Shown here in pieces: positions 3,711 to 64,000 of a DNA stretch of 64,000 nt; the first letter of the stretch is position 1, and each line of letters starts with the position of its first letter. Made by a program: the position numbers and the translations under genes. Location of the stretch: the NCBI RefSeq assembly GCF_000708885.1, contig NZ_JEOE01000017.1, positions 1 to 64,000 on the forward strand, in the 5' to 3' direction. The notes under the pieces are model-generated. The model was not told the DNA's origin, did no database searches, and worked only from the letters and a program-made list of their open reading frames with translations. Origin of the DNA: Cellulomonas sp. HZM (GTDB lineage: Bacteria; Actinomycetota; Actinomycetes; Actinomycetales; Cellulomonadaceae).

Positions 3711-4265
3711 GTGCAGAGCGCAGCAGCGACGGCACCGCAGCGCACCGCGCGCCGCGGGTGGCGTCGCCGCGCGCGCCACGCGGGGCGGCCCGCGGCCGTC
3801 CTCCTCGCTGTGGTCGCGGCCCTCGTGCTCGGCGGCGGTGGCGCCGCGTGGGCCTGGTGGACGGTCGGCTCGACGCTGCCGACGGTGGCGGCGGCAGCGG
3901 CGGCGGTGCCCCCGCCCACGGGGACGTTCGGCTGCACGCCGCGGTCCAACGGCGGTGGGCTGCTCGCGTACAACAGCTCGCTGGACCTCACCTGGGGCGC
4001 CGCGACGACGACGCCCACCAGGTACCTCGTGCACGTCGTCGGCAGCGACGGGACCGTCCTCGACGTCGACGCCGGGACCGCGCTGACGCTCAACCTCGTC
4101 AACACCGACCTCGACCCGTCGGCGACGACGACCTACACCGTCACGGTCGTGGCCCAGAAGGCCTACACGTCCGTGACGTGGTCGTCCACGGCGCTGACCC
4201 AGACGGTGAAGGCCACCCGCAAGACGTTCATCATCTTCCCGTACTACGAGATGTCGTGCGCCTGA
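3711..4265 (+). CDS. Membrane-anchored or secreted protein of the SipW cluster, unknown function
   Basis: 184 residues from GTG 3711, chosen because GGAGG lies at 3698-3702 with an 8-base spacer; an in-frame ATG at 3693 has no such site. A very basic head (RTARRGWRRRARHAGRP) precedes one hydrophobic segment ending in GGGGAAWAWW, then an Ala/Pro linker and a beta-rich domain resembling a fibronectin-type fold (LTWGAATTTPTRYLVHVV, TYTVTVVAQKAYTSVTWSS). The AWAWW end of the signal resembles its two upstream neighbours. It may be a minor subunit or carrier of the fibre. The stop is 1 base before the next ATG, indicating tight coupling. Confidence 0.65.
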   Translation: MQSAAATAPQRTARRGWRRRARHAGRPAAVLLAVVAALVLGGGGAAWAWWTVGSTLPTVAAAAAAVPPPTGTFGCTPRSNGGGLLAYNSSLDLTWGAATTTPTRYLVHVVGSDGTVLDVDAGTALTLNLVNTDLDPSATTTYTVTVVAQKAYTSVTWSSTALTQTVKATRKTFIIFPYYEMSCA

Positions 4266-4266
4266 C

Positions 4267-4896
4267 ATGACGACGCAGACCGCCCCCGACAGCGTCCCCG
4301 AGGCGACCATCGACCTCGCGGCCGGCGCCGCGCCGCGCCACTCGCGCGCGCCGCGCGACGAGCGGCTCGGGGTCGTGCGTGCCCTCGGCGGCGTGGTCTC
4401 GGGCGCGGCGCTCGCGGCGGCGGTGCTGCTCGCCCTGGCGCTCGTCGTCGTGCCCCTCCTGCTGGGGGCCACGCCGTACACGATCCTCACGGGCAGCATG
4501 CAGCCGACGATGCCGCCGGGCACGCTCGTCGTGACGCGTCCGACCCCCGTCGACCGGATCGACATCGGCGACGTCGTCACGTACCAGCTGCACTCGGAGC
4601 AGCCCGAGGTGGTGACGCACCGCGTCGTGGGCGTCGGCACGCAGTCCGACGGCTCGCACGTGTTCCTGACGCGCGGCGACGCGAACAACGCGGACGACGA
4701 TCCCGTGCTCGCGGTGCAGGTGCGCGGGGTCGTCGCCTACCACGTGCCCTACCTCGGCTACGTCAACACGTGGGTGGGAGCGAACCGGCCCGGGTGGGCG
4801 CTCAAGGCCGTCGCCGGCGGTCTCATCGCGTACGGCGGCGTGCTCCTCGTCGCAGGCGCGCGGGAGCGACGACGGCGCGCCCGGACGGCCTCGTGA
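4267..4896 (+). CDS. Signal peptidase I, SipW/ER-type (Ser-His)
   Basis: 209 residues. This membrane serine peptidase cleaves signal peptides on the outer face of the membrane. One TM helix (about 42-67) is followed by LTGSMQPTMPPG with the nucleophile Ser77, then GDVVTYQ and VVTHRVVGV with His118. A His in place of the usual Lys defines the archaeal/ER/SipW branch. TRGDANNADDD supplies the later Asp region, and a second hydrophobic segment (about 175-200) ends in a basic tail. Its place directly after three proteins with alternate signal peptides indicates they are its substrates. The stop overlaps the next start (GTGA at 4893). Confidence 0.9.
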   Translation: MTTQTAPDSVPEATIDLAAGAAPRHSRAPRDERLGVVRALGGVVSGAALAAAVLLALALVVVPLLLGATPYTILTGSMQPTMPPGTLVVTRPTPVDRIDIGDVVTYQLHSEQPEVVTHRVVGVGTQSDGSHVFLTRGDANNADDDPVLAVQVRGVVAYHVPYLGYVNTWVGANRPGWALKAVAGGLIAYGGVLLVAGARERRRRARTAS

Positions 4897-56346: not shown

Positions 56347-57066
56347 ATGCCGCAGCACAGCAAGGCGTACCGCAACGCCGTCGAGAAGATCGAGGCCGGC
56401 AAGGCCTACAGCCCGCTCGAGGCCGTGCGCCTCGCGCAGGAGACCTCGACCACCAAGTACGACGCGACCGTCGAGGTGGTCTTCCGCCTCGGTGTCGACC
56501 CGCGCAAGGCGGACCAGATGGTCCGCGGCACGGTGAACCTGCCGAACGGCACGGGCAAGACCGCGCGCGTCATCGTCTTCGCGACGGGTGAGCGTGCCGA
56601 CCAGGCGCGCGCCGCCGGTGCCGACGAGGTCGGTGGCGACGAGCTCATCGACAAGGTCGCCAAGGGCTACACGGACTTCGACTCCGCCGTCGCCACGCCC
56701 GACCTCATGGGCAAGGTCGGTCGTCTGGGCAAGGTCCTGGGTCCGCGTGGCCTCATGCCGAACCCGAAGACCGGCACCGTGACGATGGACGTGGCCAAGG
56801 CCGTGTCCGACATCAAGGGCGGCAAGATCGAGTTCCGCGTGGACCGTCACGCGAACCTCCACTTCATCATCGGCAAGACGTCGTTCTCCGACGTCCAGCT
56901 GGTGGAGAACTACGCTGCGGCGCTCGACGAGATCCTGCGTCTGAAGCCGTCGGCCTCGAAGGGGCGCTACATCACCAAGGCGACGATCTCCACGACGAAC
57001 GGCCCCGGCATCCTGCTCGACCAGAACAAGACCCGGAACCTGACGTCGGAGGACGACGCGGCCTGA
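56347..57066 (+). CDS. rplA: 50S ribosomal protein L1
   Basis: 239 residues, GAGGAGA before the ATG. L1-stalk protein; [53 protein letters not shown] and [21 protein letters not shown] are family signatures. Followed by a strong terminator. Confidence 0.98.
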
Positions 57067-57231: not shown

Positions 57232-58050
57232 TCAGCGGGCGTCGCCGGCGACGTCCCTGCCGACGCGCACCGCTCCGCGCACCAGCTCGAGCGGCCGGGA
57301 CCACAGCCCGGCCAGCCACGCCAGGTCCTCGTCGTCGGGCTCGGACAGCACCGCGAGCTGGGCGGTCCACTCGACCGCGGTCGCGAGCGTCCGGGCCACC
57401 GCCATGCCGCGCGTCGGCATCGCGGAGCCACCGGCGTCGCGATACCGCGCGACGAGAACGGCGGCCGGGTCCAGGTGCCACGCAGGATCCAGCGCCGGGA
57501 CGAGCCCCACTGCCAGCCAGTCGAGCGCGCACGCGACGTCCCAGCGCGGGTCGCCCAGCCGCCCCGTGGGCGAGCCGTCGGCGGGCGGGCGGATCCACGC
57601 GTCGACCCGCCCTGCGTCGCGCACGACGACGACGAGGTCTCCCGTGACGTCGCCGTGGGTCGCCTGCACAGCCGTCCACTGACGCGCCGCGGTCTCGACG
57701 TAGCGGGCGACGGCCGCGTTGGCCCGCACCGCCCAGGCCGGTCCCGCCTGCGCGGGGAGCTCGTCGAGCCACGCCGGGAACGGCTGCTCGAGCACCCACG
57801 GCAGGGGAGCGTCGTCCACCTGCGCGGTCACGGCCCCGCGGTGCAGGTCGACGAGTGCCTTCGCCCACGCGCTCAGCAGGTCGTCGAGCTCGGCGCGCAG
57901 CCGCGTGCTCGCGCCGTGCAGGTGCAGGCGCTCGACGAGGTCCTCGAGCTCGCGCACGAGCGAGACGCGGGGAGCGTCGCCGAGGCGGACGGCCTGCACG
58001 GCGTGCAGCGCCGGCCTGCGCCGGACCTCGTGCTCCTGCGTGACGGTCAT
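57232..58050 (-). CDS. Kinase-fold (APH-like) protein, probably catalytically inactive
   Basis: 272 residues. The second half resembles the C-lobe of aminoglycoside/choline-kinase-like enzymes: ATHGDVTGDLVVVV (H132-D134, HGD motif) and GRLGDPRWDVACALDWLA (166-180). In active members HGD is followed by an Asn five residues on and by an ID metal site before GDPxWD. Here these read DL and WIRPP, so ATP/metal chemistry looks lost. The N-lobe is short and lacks a clear Lys/P-loop. It lies 87 bases after the PFTE protease gene on the same strand, so they probably form one transcript. A regulatory or scaffold role is inferred. Confidence 0.6.
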   Translation of the reverse strand: MTVTQEHEVRRRPALHAVQAVRLGDAPRVSLVRELEDLVERLHLHGASTRLRAELDDLLSAWAKALVDLHRGAVTAQVDDAPLPWVLEQPFPAWLDELPAQAGPAWAVRANAAVARYVETAARQWTAVQATHGDVTGDLVVVVRDAGRVDAWIRPPADGSPTGRLGDPRWDVACALDWLAVGLVPALDPAWHLDPAAVLVARYRDAGGSAMPTRGMAVARTLATAVEWTAQLAVLSEPDDEDLAWLAGLWSRPLELVRGAVRVGRDVAGDAR

Positions 58051-58137
58051 CGCCCTGCTCCTCGGGTCGTCAGGTGGGTTCCGGGTCGGTCCTTCGTGGT
58101 CGGTGCTCCGTCGCGGGTGCGCCGACCACCGCCGGCC

Positions 58138-60108
58138 TCAGCGGGTTCGTCGCGTGGAGGCCGCGAGGTAGCCCGCCCAGTAGGTACGGCGCGCCCGCAG
58201 CTGCGCGCGGACCGCGACCTCGACCTGGGCCGCACGCGCCATCCGACGGCCCACCAGGCGGACCCGGGCGTCGAAGCCGTCGAGGCCGGGCGGGATGTCG
58301 GCGGCCTCGGTGAACGGTTCGGTGAACGGTTCGGTGAAGGGCTCGGTGAAGGGCTCGGTGAAGGGCTCCGTGAACGGCTCCGTGAACGGCTCGGTGAACG
58401 GGTCCGCGGAGAGCGCCTCGGTGAACGGCTCTGTGAATGGTTCCGTGAAGGGTTCGGTGAACGGGTTCGTGCCGAGCGCCTCGGTGAACGGCTCGGTGAA
58501 CGGCTCGGTGAAGGGCTCCGTGAACGGCTCCGTGAACGGGTTCGTGCCGAGCGCCTCGGTGAACGGCTCCGTGAACGGCTCGGTGAACGGCTCGGTGAAC
58601 GGCTCGGTGAACGGCTCGGTGAACGGCTCGGTGAACGGGTTCGTGCCGAGCGCCTCGGTGAACGGCTCGGTGAAGGGCTCCGTGAACGGCTCCGTGAACG
58701 GCTCTGTGAACGGCTCCGTGAACGGCTCGGTCCGCTCGGAAGAGCCGTCGGCGCGTGCGCTCGTCCCGCGCTGCGCCTCGTCGGCACCCCGGGTCCCGGT
58801 CCTGGTGGCGACCGCCGCGGAGATCGTCCCACCGGCACCGGCACCGGCACCGGCACCCTCGCCGTCGTCGTCCGGCCGGACCGTCACAGCCGCGGCCCGG
58901 GCCTGCGCTGCTGCGGCACGGGCCGCGGCCGCACGCGCGGCCCGAGCCCGGGCGGCGGCTGCCGCGCTGCCCGGCAGCGGCGGGAGCCACGCGTCACGGC
59001 GCACCTCCGCGGTGAGCGCCGCCCGCCGCGCCCGCAGCGCGGCGCCGGCACGGTACGTGAGCATCGCCTCTGCCCGGGGCGCGCTGAGCACGTCCACGCC
59101 GAGGGTCTCCTCGACTGCGGCGATCGGGCTGGCCACGGAGAACGACCCGTCGTCCTCGCCCGCCCACAGCAGCCCGACGACGTTCCCCTCGTCGTCGACG
59201 ACCGCGGAGCCGGAGTCGCCGCCCGCGGAGAACCTGTCGCTGCCCTCGTCGGGCCGGATGCGGATCTGGTCGCGCAGCGTGTGCCAGCCGATCCCTGGGC
59301 CGAAGTCCACCGCGGTCGTGTAGTCGGTCGAGACGACGGTGCCGCCGCGCACGCCCGTCGTGCGCCCGCTCTTGCGCACGTGCTGGTCCTCGGTCGCAGA
59401 CGCGGTGCCGGCGACCAGGCCGAGCCCCACGATGCCGGGCCACCAGGGCGCGCCGGGTGCGAGCGCGACGACGGCCGCGTCGACCCGGTCGGTGAGCGTC
59501 CCGCGCACGAGCGCGCCGATGCGGTCGCGCGCGGCGACGCCGCGATCGGCGAGCGCGGGCTGGATCCAGGTGCTGCCGAGGTCCTCGAGACCGTCTCCGG
59601 CGGCGACGTGCCAGTTGGTCAGGCCGAGCGTGCGGCCGGTGTGACGCTCGGTGACGAGCACGCCGAGCGTGCCGTTCACGGTGCGCAGCTGGGGGTGCCC
59701 GTCGACGGGCACGGTCACCGCGTCGGCAGGACCGAAGCTGAGGCCACCGGCGAGCGGGCGCGTGCGCAGCCGGGTGCGGGGTGTGCCGGCCTGCTCGTCG
59801 GCCGCGACCGCCTGCTCCTGGACGGACAGGGGCGAGACCCTGTGCACGACGACGTCGGTCGGCACCCCGTCGTAGCTCGCGGGGATGCGCTCGTCGTCAC
59901 GCAGCTCGTCGTCCGCGCGCTTGCGCTCGACGTGCACGACGATCGCCTGGCGTCCCGTCGGGGAGCCGTCGGACCACTTCTCGCCGATGTCGACGCCCAC
60001 CACGCCGGGACGGGCGAGCAGCGCGTCCTCGACGCTGCGCTTGGTCGGCCGGATGTCGTCGCGCGTGAGCGCGTCAGCCTGGGGGGCGGTGCCGTCCTGC
60101 TCGCTCAT
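58138..60108 (-). CDS. Cytosolic trypsin-like serine protease with 30 PFTE repeats
   Basis: 656 residues from ATG 60108; GAGG lies 8 bases upstream. No signal peptide. An N-terminal alpha/beta domain (about 15-95; ALLARPGVVGVDIGEKW) precedes an S1-type protease domain (about 120-340) with the full triad: His167 in TNWHVAAG, Asp210 in RVDAAVVAL, Ser299 in GGDSGSAV. An Ala/Arg helix-rich linker (345-410) and a Gly/Ala stretch lead to residues 462-601: 30 PFTE tetrapeptides in blocks of 6, 7, 5, 4 and 8, split by ALGTN three times and ALSAD once. A basic helix of 55 residues ends the protein. Divergent from the sigma/CHAT operon. Confidence 0.82.
   Translation of the reverse strand: MSEQDGTAPQADALTRDDIRPTKRSVEDALLARPGVVGVDIGEKWSDGSPTGRQAIVVHVERKRADDELRDDERIPASYDGVPTDVVVHRVSPLSVQEQAVAADEQAGTPRTRLRTRPLAGGLSFGPADAVTVPVDGHPQLRTVNGTLGVLVTERHTGRTLGLTNWHVAAGDGLEDLGSTWIQPALADRGVAARDRIGALVRGTLTDRVDAAVVALAPGAPWWPGIVGLGLVAGTASATEDQHVRKSGRTTGVRGGTVVSTDYTTAVDFGPGIGWHTLRDQIRIRPDEGSDRFSAGGDSGSAVVDDEGNVVGLLWAGEDDGSFSVASPIAAVEETLGVDVLSAPRAEAMLTYRAGAALRARRAALTAEVRRDAWLPPLPGSAAAAARARAARAAAARAAAAQARAAAVTVRPDDDGEGAGAGAGAGGTISAAVATRTGTRGADEAQRGTSARADGSSERTEPFTEPFTEPFTEPFTEPFTEPFTEALGTNPFTEPFTEPFTEPFTEPFTEPFTEPFTEALGTNPFTEPFTEPFTEPFTEPFTEALGTNPFTEPFTEPFTEPFTEALSADPFTEPFTEPFTEPFTEPFTEPFTEPFTEPFTEAADIPPGLDGFDARVRLVGRRMARAAQVEVAVRAQLRARRTYWAGYLAASTRRTR
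58306..58725 (-). repeat. 12-bp tandem repeat array encoding (PFTE)30
   Basis: 420 bases: 30 units coding Pro-Phe-Thr-Glu plus four 15-base separators. Units differ at synonymous sites (Glu GAG/GAA, Pro CCG/CCC, Thr ACC/ACG/ACA) while the peptide is unchanged, which argues for selection on the protein. No spacers, so not CRISPR. Confidence 0.95.
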
Positions 60109-60226
60109 GTCCTCGTCCTCGGGGTCGTCAGGGCCGTCTGGGGGTGTCGTCCGGAGCTGTCGGTCGAGGGAGGGTGCCGGACGCCCTCGTGCTGCTCGGT
60201 GCTCAGGAGCACGGGTGGCCGGCTCT

Positions 60227-60286
60227 GATACATCCGTCCGGGTGATGTTCTCGCAGGTCGGCGGTCGCACGTGGGTGCCATGTATC
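60227..60286. promoter_or_regulatory. Inverted heptamers between the protease and sigma operons
   Basis: GATACAT (60227-60233) and ATGTATC (60280-60286). Read outward on each strand the context is ATGTATCAGAGCC (towards the protease) and ATGTATCTGAGGGCC (towards the sigma gene). A shared promoter element or operator is likely. The whole divergent gap (60109-60445, 337 bases) holds no convincing gene; short frames starting at each ATGTATC (42 and 51 codons) are possible but unsupported. Confidence 0.5.
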
Positions 60287-60371
60287 TGAGGGCCGCACGG
60301 CGGCTCCTCCCGTGCGACCCGGCAGGACCGGGGTGCGGCACCTCAGGGGGCGGTGCCGCGCCCCGACATCC

Positions 60372-60401
60372 TTGTCCGGGGTGTCCGGGCCGTCCTACGC
60401 T
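60372..60401 (+). promoter_or_regulatory. Candidate housekeeping promoter of the sigma/CHAT operon
   Basis: -35 TTGTCC (60372-60377), spacer 18, -10 TACGCT (60396-60401), about 45 bases before the sigma-factor start. Confidence 0.45.
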
Positions 60402-60445
60402 GGCGAGGGCGGCCGCCCGACGAGGCCCGCTGTGAGGGGTCCATG

Positions 60446-61075
60446 ATGAGTGACGACCTGGTGGAGCCGGTGGACACCGCGCTCCGCGACCAGGGGGAGA
60501 GCCTGGTCGACCAGGCCGCGCACGCCGTCGAGGCGTACCGCGCGGGAGAGCGTGAACCGCTCGCCGCCCTGGTGCACGTGATGACCCCGTTGCTGTGGCA
60601 CACGGTGCGTGCGCAGGGGGTCGACCAGGAGCACGCGCAGGACATCGTCCAGAACGTGTGGCTGACCCTGGTGCGGGACATCGACCAGATCCGCGACCCG
60701 CGGGCGACCCTGCAGTGGATGCTCGTCACCGCGAAGCGCGCGGCGTGGCGTGCGGTGCGCCGCACGCGCGACGAGGCGCTCCGGCAGGACGCCGACGAGC
60801 ACGCGACCGACTGGCTCACGACCCCGGTCGACGAGCTGCCGGACAGCCTCGCGGTCCGCTCGGAGCGTGACAAGGTGCTCTGGGAGCACGTGCGGGCGCT
60901 GCCCGACAGGTGCCGCCGCCTCCTGGGCCTGGTGGCCCTCGTCGAACGTCCCGACTACGCGGTCGTGTCGCAGGCGCTGGGGATGCCGGTCGGAAGCATC
61001 GGCCCGACGCGCGGCCGCTGCCTCGCCAAGCTCCGCACGTCCCTCGCCGCCGACCCCACCTGGAGCCTGTCATGA
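60446..61075 (+). CDS. Sigma-70-family RNA polymerase sigma factor (ECF-like)
   Basis: 209 residues from ATG 60446, 6 bases after GAGGGG (60434-60439); ATG 60443 is too close. Region 2: LLWHTVRAQGVDQEHAQDIVQNVWLTLVRDIDQIRDP and LQWMLVTAKRAAWRAVRR. Region 4: ALPDRCRRLLGLVALVERPDYAVVSQALGMPVGSIGPTRGRCLAKLR. No regions 1 or 3, so ECF size. No typical anti-sigma gene is adjacent; the next gene product is a candidate partner. It may direct transcription of this cluster. ATGA overlap with the next gene. Confidence 0.88.
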   Translation: MSDDLVEPVDTALRDQGESLVDQAAHAVEAYRAGEREPLAALVHVMTPLLWHTVRAQGVDQEHAQDIVQNVWLTLVRDIDQIRDPRATLQWMLVTAKRAAWRAVRRTRDEALRQDADEHATDWLTTPVDELPDSLAVRSERDKVLWEHVRALPDRCRRLLGLVALVERPDYAVVSQALGMPVGSIGPTRGRCLAKLRTSLAADPTWSLS

Positions 61076-61575
61076 GCGACGACGACGCGACGCTGACCCT
61101 GTTCGCCCACGGGACACTCGACCCTGCCGACCGTGCGGTGCTCGACGCGCTCGCACGTCTCGTCGACGCGGTCGACCCGGTGCCCGACGGGCTCGTCGAC
61201 CGGATCGGTGTGGCCCTCACGATCGAGGCCCTCGAGGCCGAGGTCGCCGCGCTGCACCTGACGGGGGAGCCCGCGCTCGCGCTGCGTGCGGACGAGACCA
61301 GCATCGAGGCGGGCACGATCACGTTCACCACGGACGTGCTGACCGTCATGATCTCGGTGCACGCCGAGGCGGACCGCGTGCGCGTCGACGGCTGGGCCGC
61401 CCCGGCGGACGTCATCGAGGTCGAGCTGCACCAGGGCGGTGACGTGACGACGACCGTGTCGGACGCGGACGGCCGCTTCTCGTTCGTCGACGTGGAACGA
61501 GGGCCGGCACGCCTCGTCATGCGTCGTCCCTCCGACCCCACCGTGCCTGTCGTCACTCCCCAGATCGAGCTCTAG
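61072..61575 (+). CDS. Small protein with C-terminal transthyretin-like beta domain
   Basis: 167 residues; ATGA overlap with the sigma gene. The N-terminal half is helical (DPADRAVLDALARLVDAVDPVPDGLVDRIGVALTIEALEAEVAAL). The C-terminal part (WAAPADVIEVELHQGGDVTTTVSDADGRFSFVDVERGPARLVM) has the strand pattern of carboxypeptidase-regulatory/transthyretin-like domains. No TM segment. Being coupled to the sigma gene, it may act as its regulator, or as an adaptor for the CHAT protein 6 bases downstream; both are inferences. Confidence 0.65.
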   Translation: MSDDDATLTLFAHGTLDPADRAVLDALARLVDAVDPVPDGLVDRIGVALTIEALEAEVAALHLTGEPALALRADETSIEAGTITFTTDVLTVMISVHAEADRVRVDGWAAPADVIEVELHQGGDVTTTVSDADGRFSFVDVERGPARLVMRRPSDPTVPVVTPQIEL

Positions 61576-61581
61576 GCGCAC

Positions 61582-64000
61582 ATGACCGCAGCCAACGGCC
61601 CGTCCAGGACGGGGCCGTCGTCCCTCGACGCCGTCGTCGAGGCGGTCCGGCGCGCCGAGACCCAGAACGCAGAGGGGCGGCCTGAGCGCGCTCGGCGGCT
61701 GCTGCGAGCGGCGTTGGCGCGGCTCGACGCGGTGGACCGCCGCAACGTCGAGCCCGCGGTGGTGCGGGCGCGTGCGCGTGCTCTGACGGAGCTGCTCAAG
61801 AGCGAGTTCGAGACGGGCCGCGCGAACGAGGCGACGGACCTGCTGGACGCGATGCTCGCTGACGGCGCGGCGAGCGTGTGGCCGGGCGTCGTCCCCGCGG
61901 TCGACGGTGCGCGCGGCCTGGCAGCGCTGCGGGCGGGACGGCACGACGAGGCGCTGAGCCGGCTCGACGCAGCGGTCGCGGCGATCGACGTGGCCGACCC
62001 GGTCGACGGCTGCCGTGCGCTGCTCAACCGCGGAGTGCTGCACCTGGAGCGGCGCGACCTGCCGCGCGCGCGGGCGGACTTCACCGAGTGCGCGCGCCGC
62101 TCGCGCGCCGCGGGCTTCGACCGTCTCGTCTTCAAGGCGGAGCACAACCTGGGTGACGTGCTGTTCCACGCGGGTCGGCTGCCGGAGGCGCTCGCGCAGA
62201 TGGAGGCCGCTGCACGCTCGCTGCCGGGTCCGCCGCGGCCGACCGCGCTGCGCGACCGCAGCGACGTGCTGCTCGAGGCAGGACTCGTGGGGGTCGCGGA
62301 CCAGACGTTGGCCGAGGCGGCCGCGATGTTCGCGGCCGAGCACCTGACGCGCGACGTCGCCGAGTGCGAGCTCGGCCGGGCGGAGTGCGCGCTGCTGCGT
62401 GGTGACCCACGGGCGGCGCGCGGGTTCGCGGCCTCCGCGCTGCGACGGTTCCGCCGCCGGGGCGACGAGGCGTGGACCGTGCGCGCGACGCTGCTCGGCC
62501 TGCAGGCCGACGTCGCGCTGCTCGCGCTCGAGCCGCCGACCACGCGCACGCGTGCAGCGTGGGCGGCATTGTCCCGGCGGGCAGCGGTGCTGCAGGACCT
62601 GTGCGAGCGCACCGGGCGCCCGGTGTGGAGCCTCGCTGCGTCGTACGTCCGCATCGAGGCGGACCTGGCTCGCGGTGCGATCGCCGACCCCGTCGCGCTC
62701 GCAGACGAGCTGGGCCCCGTGAGCCCGCGGGACGCACTCTCGGTGCGCCTGTACGGGCGTCGTGTGCGCGCGATGCTCAGCCTCGCGGCCGGTGACCCGG
62801 GCCGTGCGTCGCGCTACGTGCGTGCGGGGCAGCGCGACCTGCAGACGCACCGGGCCCGGTTCGGGTCCCTGGACCTGCGCACAGCCGGGGCGGTGCACGG
62901 CTCGGCGCTCGCCGAGCTCGACATGCGGATCGCGCTCGCGACGGGCCGCGCGGGGACCGTGCTCGAGTCGGCCGAGCGCGTGCGGTCCGTCATCGGCGGC
63001 TCGCCGCGCGTCAACCCGCCGAACGACCCGGAGACGGCCGCGCTCCTGTGGGACCTGCGCAAGCTCATCGACGAGGGCCGTGTCGCGCCGAGCCTGCCGG
63101 CCGCGGATCCCGTGCGGGTGCGCCACATGCGCGAGGCGAGCCGCCTCAAGCACGAGATCCTCGCGCGCTCGTGGCACGAGCGGGGGCGCGCGCGCGAGTC
63201 GCGTCAGGCGCGTGCGGCGGACGTCCGGACTGCGGTCGCGAGCCGGGACGGCAGCGTGCTCGTGGACGTCGTCGAGCACCACGACGAGCTGGTCGCGGTG
63301 CGGGTGGACGGCAGCGGCACGTCGCTGCACCGGCTCGGTGCCGCGGCGCCTGTCGCGGAGCTCGTGCGCAGGGTGCACGCCGACCTCGAGGTCCTCGCGA
63401 ACCCGCTCGTCCCGCGCGACCTCCGCGCCGTCGCGCACCGCTCGCTCGAGGGCGGCCTCGCGCGCATCGAGGCGCAGGTCGGCGCCGCGCTCGAGGCTCC
63501 CGACGAGCTCGTCGTCGTCGCCGCGGGGTGGCTCGGCGTGCTGCCCTGGGGGCTGCTCCCGTCCCGCGTGGGCCGCCCGACCGTCGTCGCGCCGTCCGTC
63601 CACCACTGGATGACCCACACGGGCTCCGCGTCGCACGCGGCGCCCACGGCTCGTGTCGCTGCCGTCGCGGGTCCGGGGCTGCGGCACGCCGAGGCGGAGG
63701 TCCTGGAGATCACCCGCATGTGGGACGGCGGCCGCGCGTTCGTCGGCGACGAGGCGACGGTGTCCCGGACGGCGGAGCTGCTGGCCTCGCCGGGCATCGT
63801 GCACCTCGCCGCGCACGGCCGGCACGAGCAGGACAACCCGCTGTTCTCGTCGTTGCGCCTGAGCGACGGCCCGCTGTTCGCGCACGAGCTCGACAGCGGC
63901 GGGCAGGTCCCGGGGCTCGTGCTGCTGTCCTCGTGCGAGGTCGGCCGCGCGAGCATCCGGGCCGGGGGCGAGGCGCTCGGCCTCGCGAGCGTGCTCCTGC
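61582..64000 (+). CDS. TPR-CHAT (caspase-like) protease, C-terminus cut by window end
   Basis: 806 residues visible from ATG 61582; the frame is open to the edge. The first 500 or so residues are helical pairs with TPR-like phasing (AALRAGRHDEALSRLDAAVAAI, ALLNRGVLHLERRDLPRARADFTECARRS, EHNLGDVLFHAGRLPEALAQMEAAARS). The CHAT domain occupies about 590 onward: LPWGLLPS, the catalytic His745 in HLAAHGRHEQDNPLFSSLRLSDG and the catalytic Cys785 in LLSSCEVGRA. The dyad is intact. No signal peptide or TM segment, so a cytosolic Cys protease held by a TPR scaffold. Third gene of the sigma operon. Confidence 0.88.
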   Translation, partial: MTAANGPSRTGPSSLDAVVEAVRRAETQNAEGRPERARRLLRAALARLDAVDRRNVEPAVVRARARALTELLKSEFETGRANEATDLLDAMLADGAASVWPGVVPAVDGARGLAALRAGRHDEALSRLDAAVAAIDVADPVDGCRALLNRGVLHLERRDLPRARADFTECARRSRAAGFDRLVFKAEHNLGDVLFHAGRLPEALAQMEAAARSLPGPPRPTALRDRSDVLLEAGLVGVADQTLAEAAAMFAAEHLTRDVAECELGRAECALLRGDPRAARGFAASALRRFRRRGDEAWTVRATLLGLQADVALLALEPPTTRTRAAWAALSRRAAVLQDLCERTGRPVWSLAASYVRIEADLARGAIADPVALADELGPVSPRDALSVRLYGRRVRAMLSLAAGDPGRASRYVRAGQRDLQTHRARFGSLDLRTAGAVHGSALAELDMRIALATGRAGTVLESAERVRSVIGGSPRVNPPNDPETAALLWDLRKLIDEGRVAPSLPAADPVRVRHMREASRLKHEILARSWHERGRARESRQARAADVRTAVASRDGSVLVDVVEHHDELVAVRVDGSGTSLHRLGAAAPVAELVRRVHADLEVLANPLVPRDLRAVAHRSLEGGLARIEAQVGAALEAPDELVVVAAGWLGVLPWGLLPSRVGRPTVVAPSVHHWMTHTGSASHAAPTARVAAVAGPGLRHAEAEVLEITRMWDGGRAFVGDEATVSRTAELLASPGIVHLAAHGRHEQDNPLFSSLRLSDGPLFAHELDSGGQVPGLVLLSSCEVGRASIRAGGEALGLASVLL

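Follow-up and report, generated by a model that had tools for sequence, protein, structure and literature searches.

A sigma factor, BET and TPR-CHAT protease triad with an exchanged second protease in Cellulomonas

Two divergent gene units between rplA and rplJ

The window analysed here, the whole stretch of 64,000 nucleotides from position 1 to 64,000 of contig NZ_JEOE01000017.1 of the soil bacterium Cellulomonas sp. HZM, ends in two divergent units located between rplA (L1) and rplJ (L10), whose genes are real and intact. The divergent arrangement had been described in an earlier reading of the letters alone (the sequence-only reading). Two genes on the minus strand, for a Nal1/trypsin-like serine protease and an accessory protein (KIN), diverge from three genes on the plus strand, which encode an extracytoplasmic function (ECF)-type sigma factor, a small protein (BET) and a TPR-CHAT protease. 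The core unit is the tight triad of sigma factor, BET and TPR-CHAT protease, and the Nal1/trypsin-like enzyme is a lineage-specific replacement, in the Cellulomonas clade, of an unrelated subtilase. The features of the locus are as follows (aa, amino acids; bp, base pairs):

56347..57066, plus strand: rplA (L1), left border of the interval, named by eye
57232..58050, minus strand: accessory gene KIN, separated from the trypsin gene by 87 bp and encoding 272 aa
58138..60108, minus strand: Nal1/trypsin-like serine protease, 656 aa
58306..58725, minus strand: (PFTE)n repeat tail of the trypsin, 30 PFTE units, then the C-terminal segment
Codons from 59610 (H167), 59481 (D210) and 59214 (S299), minus strand: catalytic residues of the trypsin
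60205..60231, plus strand: 27-base element AGGAGC-N16-GATAC, copy 1
60282..60308, minus strand: 27-base element AGGAGC-N16-GATAC, copy 2, facing copy 1
60372..60397, plus strand: conserved stretch TTGTC-N17-CCTA upstream of the sigma gene, from an alignment of trypsin-type loci
60443..61075, plus strand: ECF-type sigma factor, 210 aa
61072..61575, plus strand: BET, 167 aa, with a helical N-domain, a linker and an Ig/FNIII-like beta domain
61246-61308, plus strand: BET linker (residues 59-79), disordered in the predicted model
61582..64194, plus strand: TPR-CHAT protease, 870 aa, the last 194 bases beyond the window end
Codons from 63814 (H745) and 63934 (C785), plus strand: catalytic residues of CHAT
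L002:13503, beyond the window: rplJ (L10), right border of the interval, named by eye

The reading frames of the sigma factor and BET overlap by ATGA and the CHAT gene starts 6 bases past BET, so the triad looks like one unit. The remainder of the CHAT gene, read in the contig, is intact and ends at 64194. The trypsin gene, for which the sequence-only reading had given a start at 60270, most likely starts at 60108 instead. No export signals were seen in the five proteins on inspection by eye only, and BET, judged in the same way, appears soluble.

The sigma factor matched TIGR02937 and Sigma70_r2, both over cut-off, and the CHAT protein matched PF12770 and a TPR profile, also over cut-off. The serine protease matched the Pfam families Trypsin_2, Trypsin, Nal1_C and NAL1_N, all below their cut-offs. 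A profile of 12 trypsin relatives found the solved plant NARROW LEAF 1 (NAL1) protease (7y77) with an expectation value (E) of 2e-7, and the Ser/His/Asp triad is kept; the PFTE tail and the bacterial operon with sigma factor and CHAT distinguish the enzyme of the module from NAL1. For BET, a match to CarboxypepD_reg (E 2e-4) did not reach the curated cut-off. The BET model, with a predicted local distance difference test score (pLDDT) of 81, has helices at residues 3-12, 18-34 and 41-61, a stretch under pLDDT 50 at residues 59-79 and then a seven-strand beta sandwich with a modest likeness to Ig/FNIII-like domains (best Z 8.9, 75 residues). The CHAT model (pLDDT 84.5) had its best match in Csx29 of Craspase (Z 26.9, root mean square deviation [rmsd] 6.0, 534 residues), with further matches to separase (Z 24.8) and DdvA (Z 20.8, rmsd 5.1, 618 residues). 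The CHAT sequence profile also matched Csx29, at E 4e-4 and within the CHAT domain only. By CHAT, the named organisms nearest to the genome are Cellulomonas.

Conservation of the triad and exchange of the second protease

In a survey of 150 genomes of the family (genomes are numbered G, loci L), BET was matched in 98, CHAT in 105, the sigma factor in 104 and KIN in 9. The sigma gene was directly upstream of BET in 98/98 BET genomes, and CHAT shared contig and strand with BET in 97 of them; in the exception, G139 (430 contigs), the CHAT match was on a contig other than BET's. These counts take one sigma and one CHAT row per genome, the row nearest to BET where CHAT was fragmented, and leave aside second copies, such as tandem CHAT genes and the additional sets in G016 and G091, together with a weak second BET row of G101. 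A single copy of BET was present in 97 of the 98 genomes.

The gap between BET and CHAT was bimodal, with <400 bp in 16 genomes and 1562-2176 bp in 81. The trypsin was present in 14 of the 16 genomes without a gap and in none of the 81 with a subtilase-sized gap. Of the 16 BET loci lacking the trypsin that were examined first (L028-L043), 15 hold a gene of the subtilase family between BET and CHAT, with a match to PF00082 in L034, and the remaining one, L029 of G009, holds nothing there. A subtilase profile, applied at E<=1e-20, found no match in the 14 trypsin genomes, including that of the window, and likewise none in G009 and G067; in the control, G034, it gave E 3e-243. Among the matches to the trypsin in this survey, the 14 at E<=5.7e-79 alone were counted as module trypsins; we regarded the others (35-40% identity, at different genomic positions, frequently extending beyond a stop) as ordinary S1 proteases.

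A tree of 84 sigma+BET pairs, calculated by a quick method with the Shimodaira-Hasegawa-like approximate likelihood ratio test (SH-aLRT) as the only support and with 4 loci having neither protease left uncounted, needs one change between the trypsin and subtilase states. A starred value of 99 stands on the branch that unites L058 with the 22 trypsin loci. This locus entered the tree as "none", but it does have a trypsin gene further away, behind a second module. A different position of the subtilase, ahead of the sigma gene and not after BET, was seen in Phycicoccus, Pedococcus, Occultella and Jatrophihabitans.

The active sites are kept, as stated in the sequence-only reading: H167/D210/S299 of the trypsin and H745/C785 of CHAT are present in the window. 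The pairing of two proteases with a dedicated sigma factor was borne out, with the CHAT His and Cys in 127/127 and the triad of the module trypsin in 23/23 aligned homologues; the catalytic triad of the subtilase is kept in 95/95. The trypsin, however, is not what defines the system, being lineage specific (14/98 triads). A unit of five genes was ruled out as well: the triad is without the trypsin in 84/98 genomes, and KIN occurs in just 9/150, every one with the trypsin. The description of KIN as "pseudokinase-like" also found no support, because KIN and two homologues matched no Pfam family at E<=1, and kinase ancestry was set aside. A THGD motif at KIN residue 131 is, as we take it, only suggestive of a kinase.

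Across the class, 55 of 296 genomes, from many families, have BET. Among 36 of these class-wide places that were examined, a CHAT gene was found within the stretch covered in 24 and a subtilase-model gene in 26. A third layout (L044-L047, L058, L180-L182), which sits in the rplA-rplJ interval in several genomes, places a sigma gene, a subtilase and a further gene (F18) close to CHAT in other orientations; the F18 protein is related to BET by profile (probability 95.9), and L058, from Cellulomonas sp. 73-92, has this layout and the trypsin-type module together. Tandem CHAT genes were seen in Promicromonospora and Antribacter (L036, L037, L094-L097, L099, L103, L110, L113 and L114), and L102, from a metagenome-assembled genome (MAG) of the Nitriliruptorales, combines three BET, two subtilase and two CHAT genes in one cluster. 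Spread by mobile elements was checked just with BET against plasmids and with the CHAT domain against phages. Among plasmids there was a single partial record, of 11.9 Mb from Nonomuraea; among phages there was one unannotated record at E 2e-25, the 7.5-kb "Bacteriophage sp." MT838002.1, in which positions 4093-4632 are 44% identical to the CHAT domain of the window.

The distribution bears on the possibility that CHAT is an effector. The sigma factor would then merely induce the operon, activated CHAT together with the serine protease would attack proteins of the cell as part of an abortive or stress-death response, and BET would be a CHAT inhibitor released by proteolysis. A Nal1-like trypsin in G346 (L133, 682-2541) is fused to a nuclease-like C-terminal domain, which we take to resemble a NucA-type nuclease, and this would fit an effector role. 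So would the prediction of caspase-like and of trypsin-like proteases as components of actinobacterial conflict systems (PMC7159879, PMC8195603); in the EACC1 system as described there, a membrane EACC1 protein precedes the caspase gene (PMC7159879). However, none of the five proteins matched a PADLOC model at E<=1 (CHAT as far as the window reaches), and a known defence system was discarded on these grounds. Moreover, the single BET copy in 97/98 genomes and its fixed place in most of the family are more like a circuit that is resident than an island that is scattered. We consider an effector role unlikely.

The fixed place could itself have a function, if the module sensed ribosome trouble and was part of a translation-stress circuit. 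Of 136 loci, among which some genomes are represented more than once, 85 show both L1 and L10 in the stretch covered, 11 show L10 only and 40 neither, and two Jatrophihabitans MAGs (L074, L108), which belong to another family, carry the module in the rplA-rplJ interval as well. However, unrelated genes occupy this interval in other genera, namely a chitinase-like gene (F16) and the x11/x12 pair (loci with such genes: L002:12227-13161, L028, L062, L030, L041), and the module is elsewhere in Phycicoccus, Pedococcus and Occultella. Thus, the interval may simply tolerate inserts, and a ribosome-sensing role seems very improbable.

Peptide repeats and a 27-base element

The PFTE tail pointed out in the sequence-only reading is real: residues 462-601 of the trypsin comprise 30 units in 8 different 12-base spellings. 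PFTE or PFTQ repeats were present in 12/12 aligned trypsins, and close to their C-terminal end 9 of the 12 have the segment [FY]W[AS]G[YF]. The stricter of two repeat tests was positive for 16/16 complete module trypsins, for 3/17 of those cut by a locus or contig edge and for 0/10 complete trypsin relatives from loci outside the module. The same test was positive for 47/105 subtilase-model genes and for 3/532 unassigned genes of the loci; CHAT (0/152), BET (0/111) and sigma (0/124) genes were all negative. In the BET-type subtilases, tandem 5-7-mers precede the catalytic domain, with units such as PYTQPH, PFTSH, PFTQSH, PYTESH and PFTRGA and also GHPMYA, PMVQGM and GYGDGV. By a looser test, 48/79 BET-type subtilases (including L091, whose "repeat" is an acidic run) and 1/12 F18-type subtilases were positive; in the tandem-CHAT loci, the subtilases of sufficient length for the test had no repeat.

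Both protease types bear tandem short repeats, often P-[FY]-T-x, and the presence of such units on two unrelated proteases could be due to grafting or to convergence. Since the enzyme was exchanged while repeats are found on both, the repeats point to a working part, and position and docking would matter more than the catalytic fold. The repeats may also be a cleavage ladder and not a dock. The order of events would then be reversed: the serine protease would be the first to act, its activation coming from the loss of the repeat region, and the part of CHAT would be only to scaffold or to cut the repeats. In the subtilases the repeats are indeed N-terminal of the catalytic Asp, between the N-domain and the catalytic domain, which would be the position of a propeptide junction, and the sequence of the unit is highly variable between lineages. 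In the trypsins, however, the repeats form a C-terminal tail and there is no junction, and it is CHAT, not the serine protease, that is constant. A reversed order thus appears quite improbable.

The bipartite 27-base element was first seen when the trypsin-sigma intergenic regions were aligned. GGAGC-N15-17-GATAC occurs twice in the window, both times in the trypsin-sigma intergenic region and facing each other, with 0.16 occurrences expected by shuffling. Across 156 loci, with <=1 mismatch and a spacer of 16, there were 86 distinct sites, 80 of them intergenic, and three scrambled patterns gave 4 in total; the consensus is AGGAGC-N13-CC-[TA]GATAC. The element is present in 26/30 trypsin-type, 29/90 subtilase-type, 3/14 F18-type and 3/22 other loci. 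The trypsin-type count is not independent because the element was discovered there; the subtilase- and F18-type counts are. It also stands at the modules of Jatrophihabitans, Phycicoccus, Pedococcus and Occultella and, thus kept over several actinobacterial families, is a candidate promoter or operator. A second conserved stretch, TTGTC-N14-19-CCTA, was found upstream of the sigma gene, mostly at about 70 bp, in 28/29 trypsin-type loci; it is presumably housekeeping-promoter-like.

Genome-wide, the exact pattern with a spacer of 15-17 gave 44 sites in 12 trypsin genomes (1 to 7 in each of 11, none in G081) and 12 sites for the reversed control, so that chance accounts for a fair share of the scattered sites. 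L209, L202, L196, L216 and L217 have the element upstream of two small membrane-protein genes, the first being DUF202, which adjoin YggS- and YccF-like genes (names by eye). With <=1 mismatch it was, by our reading, upstream of DUF202 in 10/19 genomes having the gene: 8/11 with the trypsin module, 2/5 with only the F18-type module and 0/3 without a CHAT match. No such site stands at this position in the genome of the window. From these occurrences the DUF202 gene pair is a possible regulon member.

A proposed protease-controlled sigma factor among known systems

In the sequence-only reading, the sigma factor, the repeat tail and the degraded kinase fitted no recognised system. The gene context matches the published neighbourhood of ECF54, a sigma factor group traced to Huang 2015 and Casas-Pastor 2021 in the passages of a review that cover it (PMC8999054). 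According to these passages, genes for CHAT, carboxypeptidase(-like) and subtilase proteins are conserved near the ECF54 sigma gene, and regulation by proteolysis is judged probable because of those neighbours (PMC8999054). Proteolytic control is merely proposed there and the anti-sigma factor is not named (PMC8999054). The Cellulomonas module resembles ECF54 in having an ECF-type sigma factor beside CHAT. It differs in that no subtilase of this family was found in the window's genome and a Nal1/trypsin-like protease is present instead, and the presumed counterpart of the carboxypeptidase-like protein is BET, a helix+beta protein in which no enzyme domain was found. Neither repeats nor a 27-base element are mentioned in the review's passages on ECF54 (PMC8999054). 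The kind of module is therefore already known from the ECF54 gene context, and the variant with the swapped protease is apparently new; this applies to the exchange of subtilase for trypsin within the open-licence literature, and the ECF classification papers may contain more.

A second comparison is with the Csx29-Csx30-CASP-sigma system of type III-E CRISPR. There, a TPR-CHAT protease is described as cutting a protein that inhibits a sigma factor, and the locus is reported to contain motifs bound by the sigma factor (PMC10028731). Common to both are a TPR-CHAT protease, a small protein and a sigma factor in one locus, and the predicted CHAT structure is closest to Csx29. Cleavage and sigma inhibition have been shown for the CASP/Craspase system, whereas the Cellulomonas module is known from sequence and models; it also has an extra serine protease, and its BET has no sequence match to Csx30. 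No gene called in the rplA-rplJ interval, to which the search was confined, was large enough for, or similar to, Cas7-11/gRAMP. Because there is no CRISPR effector in the locus and homology to Csx30 was not found, the module is not shown to be a member of Craspase. It may, by analogy, work like the Csx29-Csx30-sigma circuit. Rather unlikely is the more specific proposal of a CRISPR-free Craspase relative or analogue, in which CHAT would cut BET, the sigma factor would fire from the 27-base element and a portable, multivalent P-[FY]-T tag would dock an exchangeable protease, whose slot an unrelated enzyme could occupy once it bears the tag. The solved structure of DdvA (PDB 8rot) resembles the CHAT model too, but by the title of the 8rot entry DdvA is a transmembrane anti-sigma factor, whereas the Cellulomonas module has BET as a separate protein.

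A protease-regulated sigma factor is the best reading of the module. In the mechanism that we propose, the sigma factor would be made at a basal level and bound by BET via the helical N-domain. A signal sensed by the TPR part would activate the CHAT protease, which would then cleave BET in the disordered linker and thereby free the sigma factor. The free sigma factor would transcribe from the 27-base elements and so produce more of its own operon and of the second protease. The repeats would serve as docking tags by which the second protease is held at the complex of CHAT and BET; there the second protease would complete the degradation of BET after the first cut or reset the system. The identity of the module is well supported; its mechanism we infer, and an ECF54-like, protease-controlled sigma factor that works in exactly this way is a tentative proposal to which we give somewhat less than an even chance.

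Several observations weigh against it. In two genomes, G009 and G067, the triad is kept although both the subtilase and the module trypsin are missing, which shows that the second protease is dispensable. Sigma-BET pairs without CHAT were found in 12/36 loci of other families, some of these stretches being incomplete. In L153-L155, L157 and L159 the pair has neither CHAT nor subtilase in a stretch of about 10 kb and, in L153-L155 and L159, adjoins a common set of genes of ~193, 368 and 215 aa; BET-sigma pairs thus also occur apart from CHAT. The BET profile gave 6 hits at E<=1, none of them a Csx30 chain or an anti-sigma structure, and the comparison of the BET structure aligned the beta domain only, with no match to a Csx30 or anti-sigma fold; a missing fold match is, however, not evidence against such a relation. 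By the looser test, 31/79 BET-type subtilases have no repeat. In the stricter test, the chitinase-like F16 genes (14/17; label by eye) and nusG (5/71) were positive too, so tandem repeats per se are not unique to the module. The element is present in only the minority of subtilase-type loci given above, and its direction is unsettled: of the module sites fitting one direction only, 22 are reverse and 7 forward, and before the DUF202 genes it reads forward.

The proposal has concrete parts, a candidate anti-sigma factor and substrate in BET with its disordered linker and a candidate promoter or operator in the 27-base element. The swap of proteases with repeats on both enzymes is a natural experiment in which the repeats stand out as functional. 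Should CHAT indeed have BET as its substrate, the module would function in the manner of Csx29-Csx30-sigma but independently of CRISPR.

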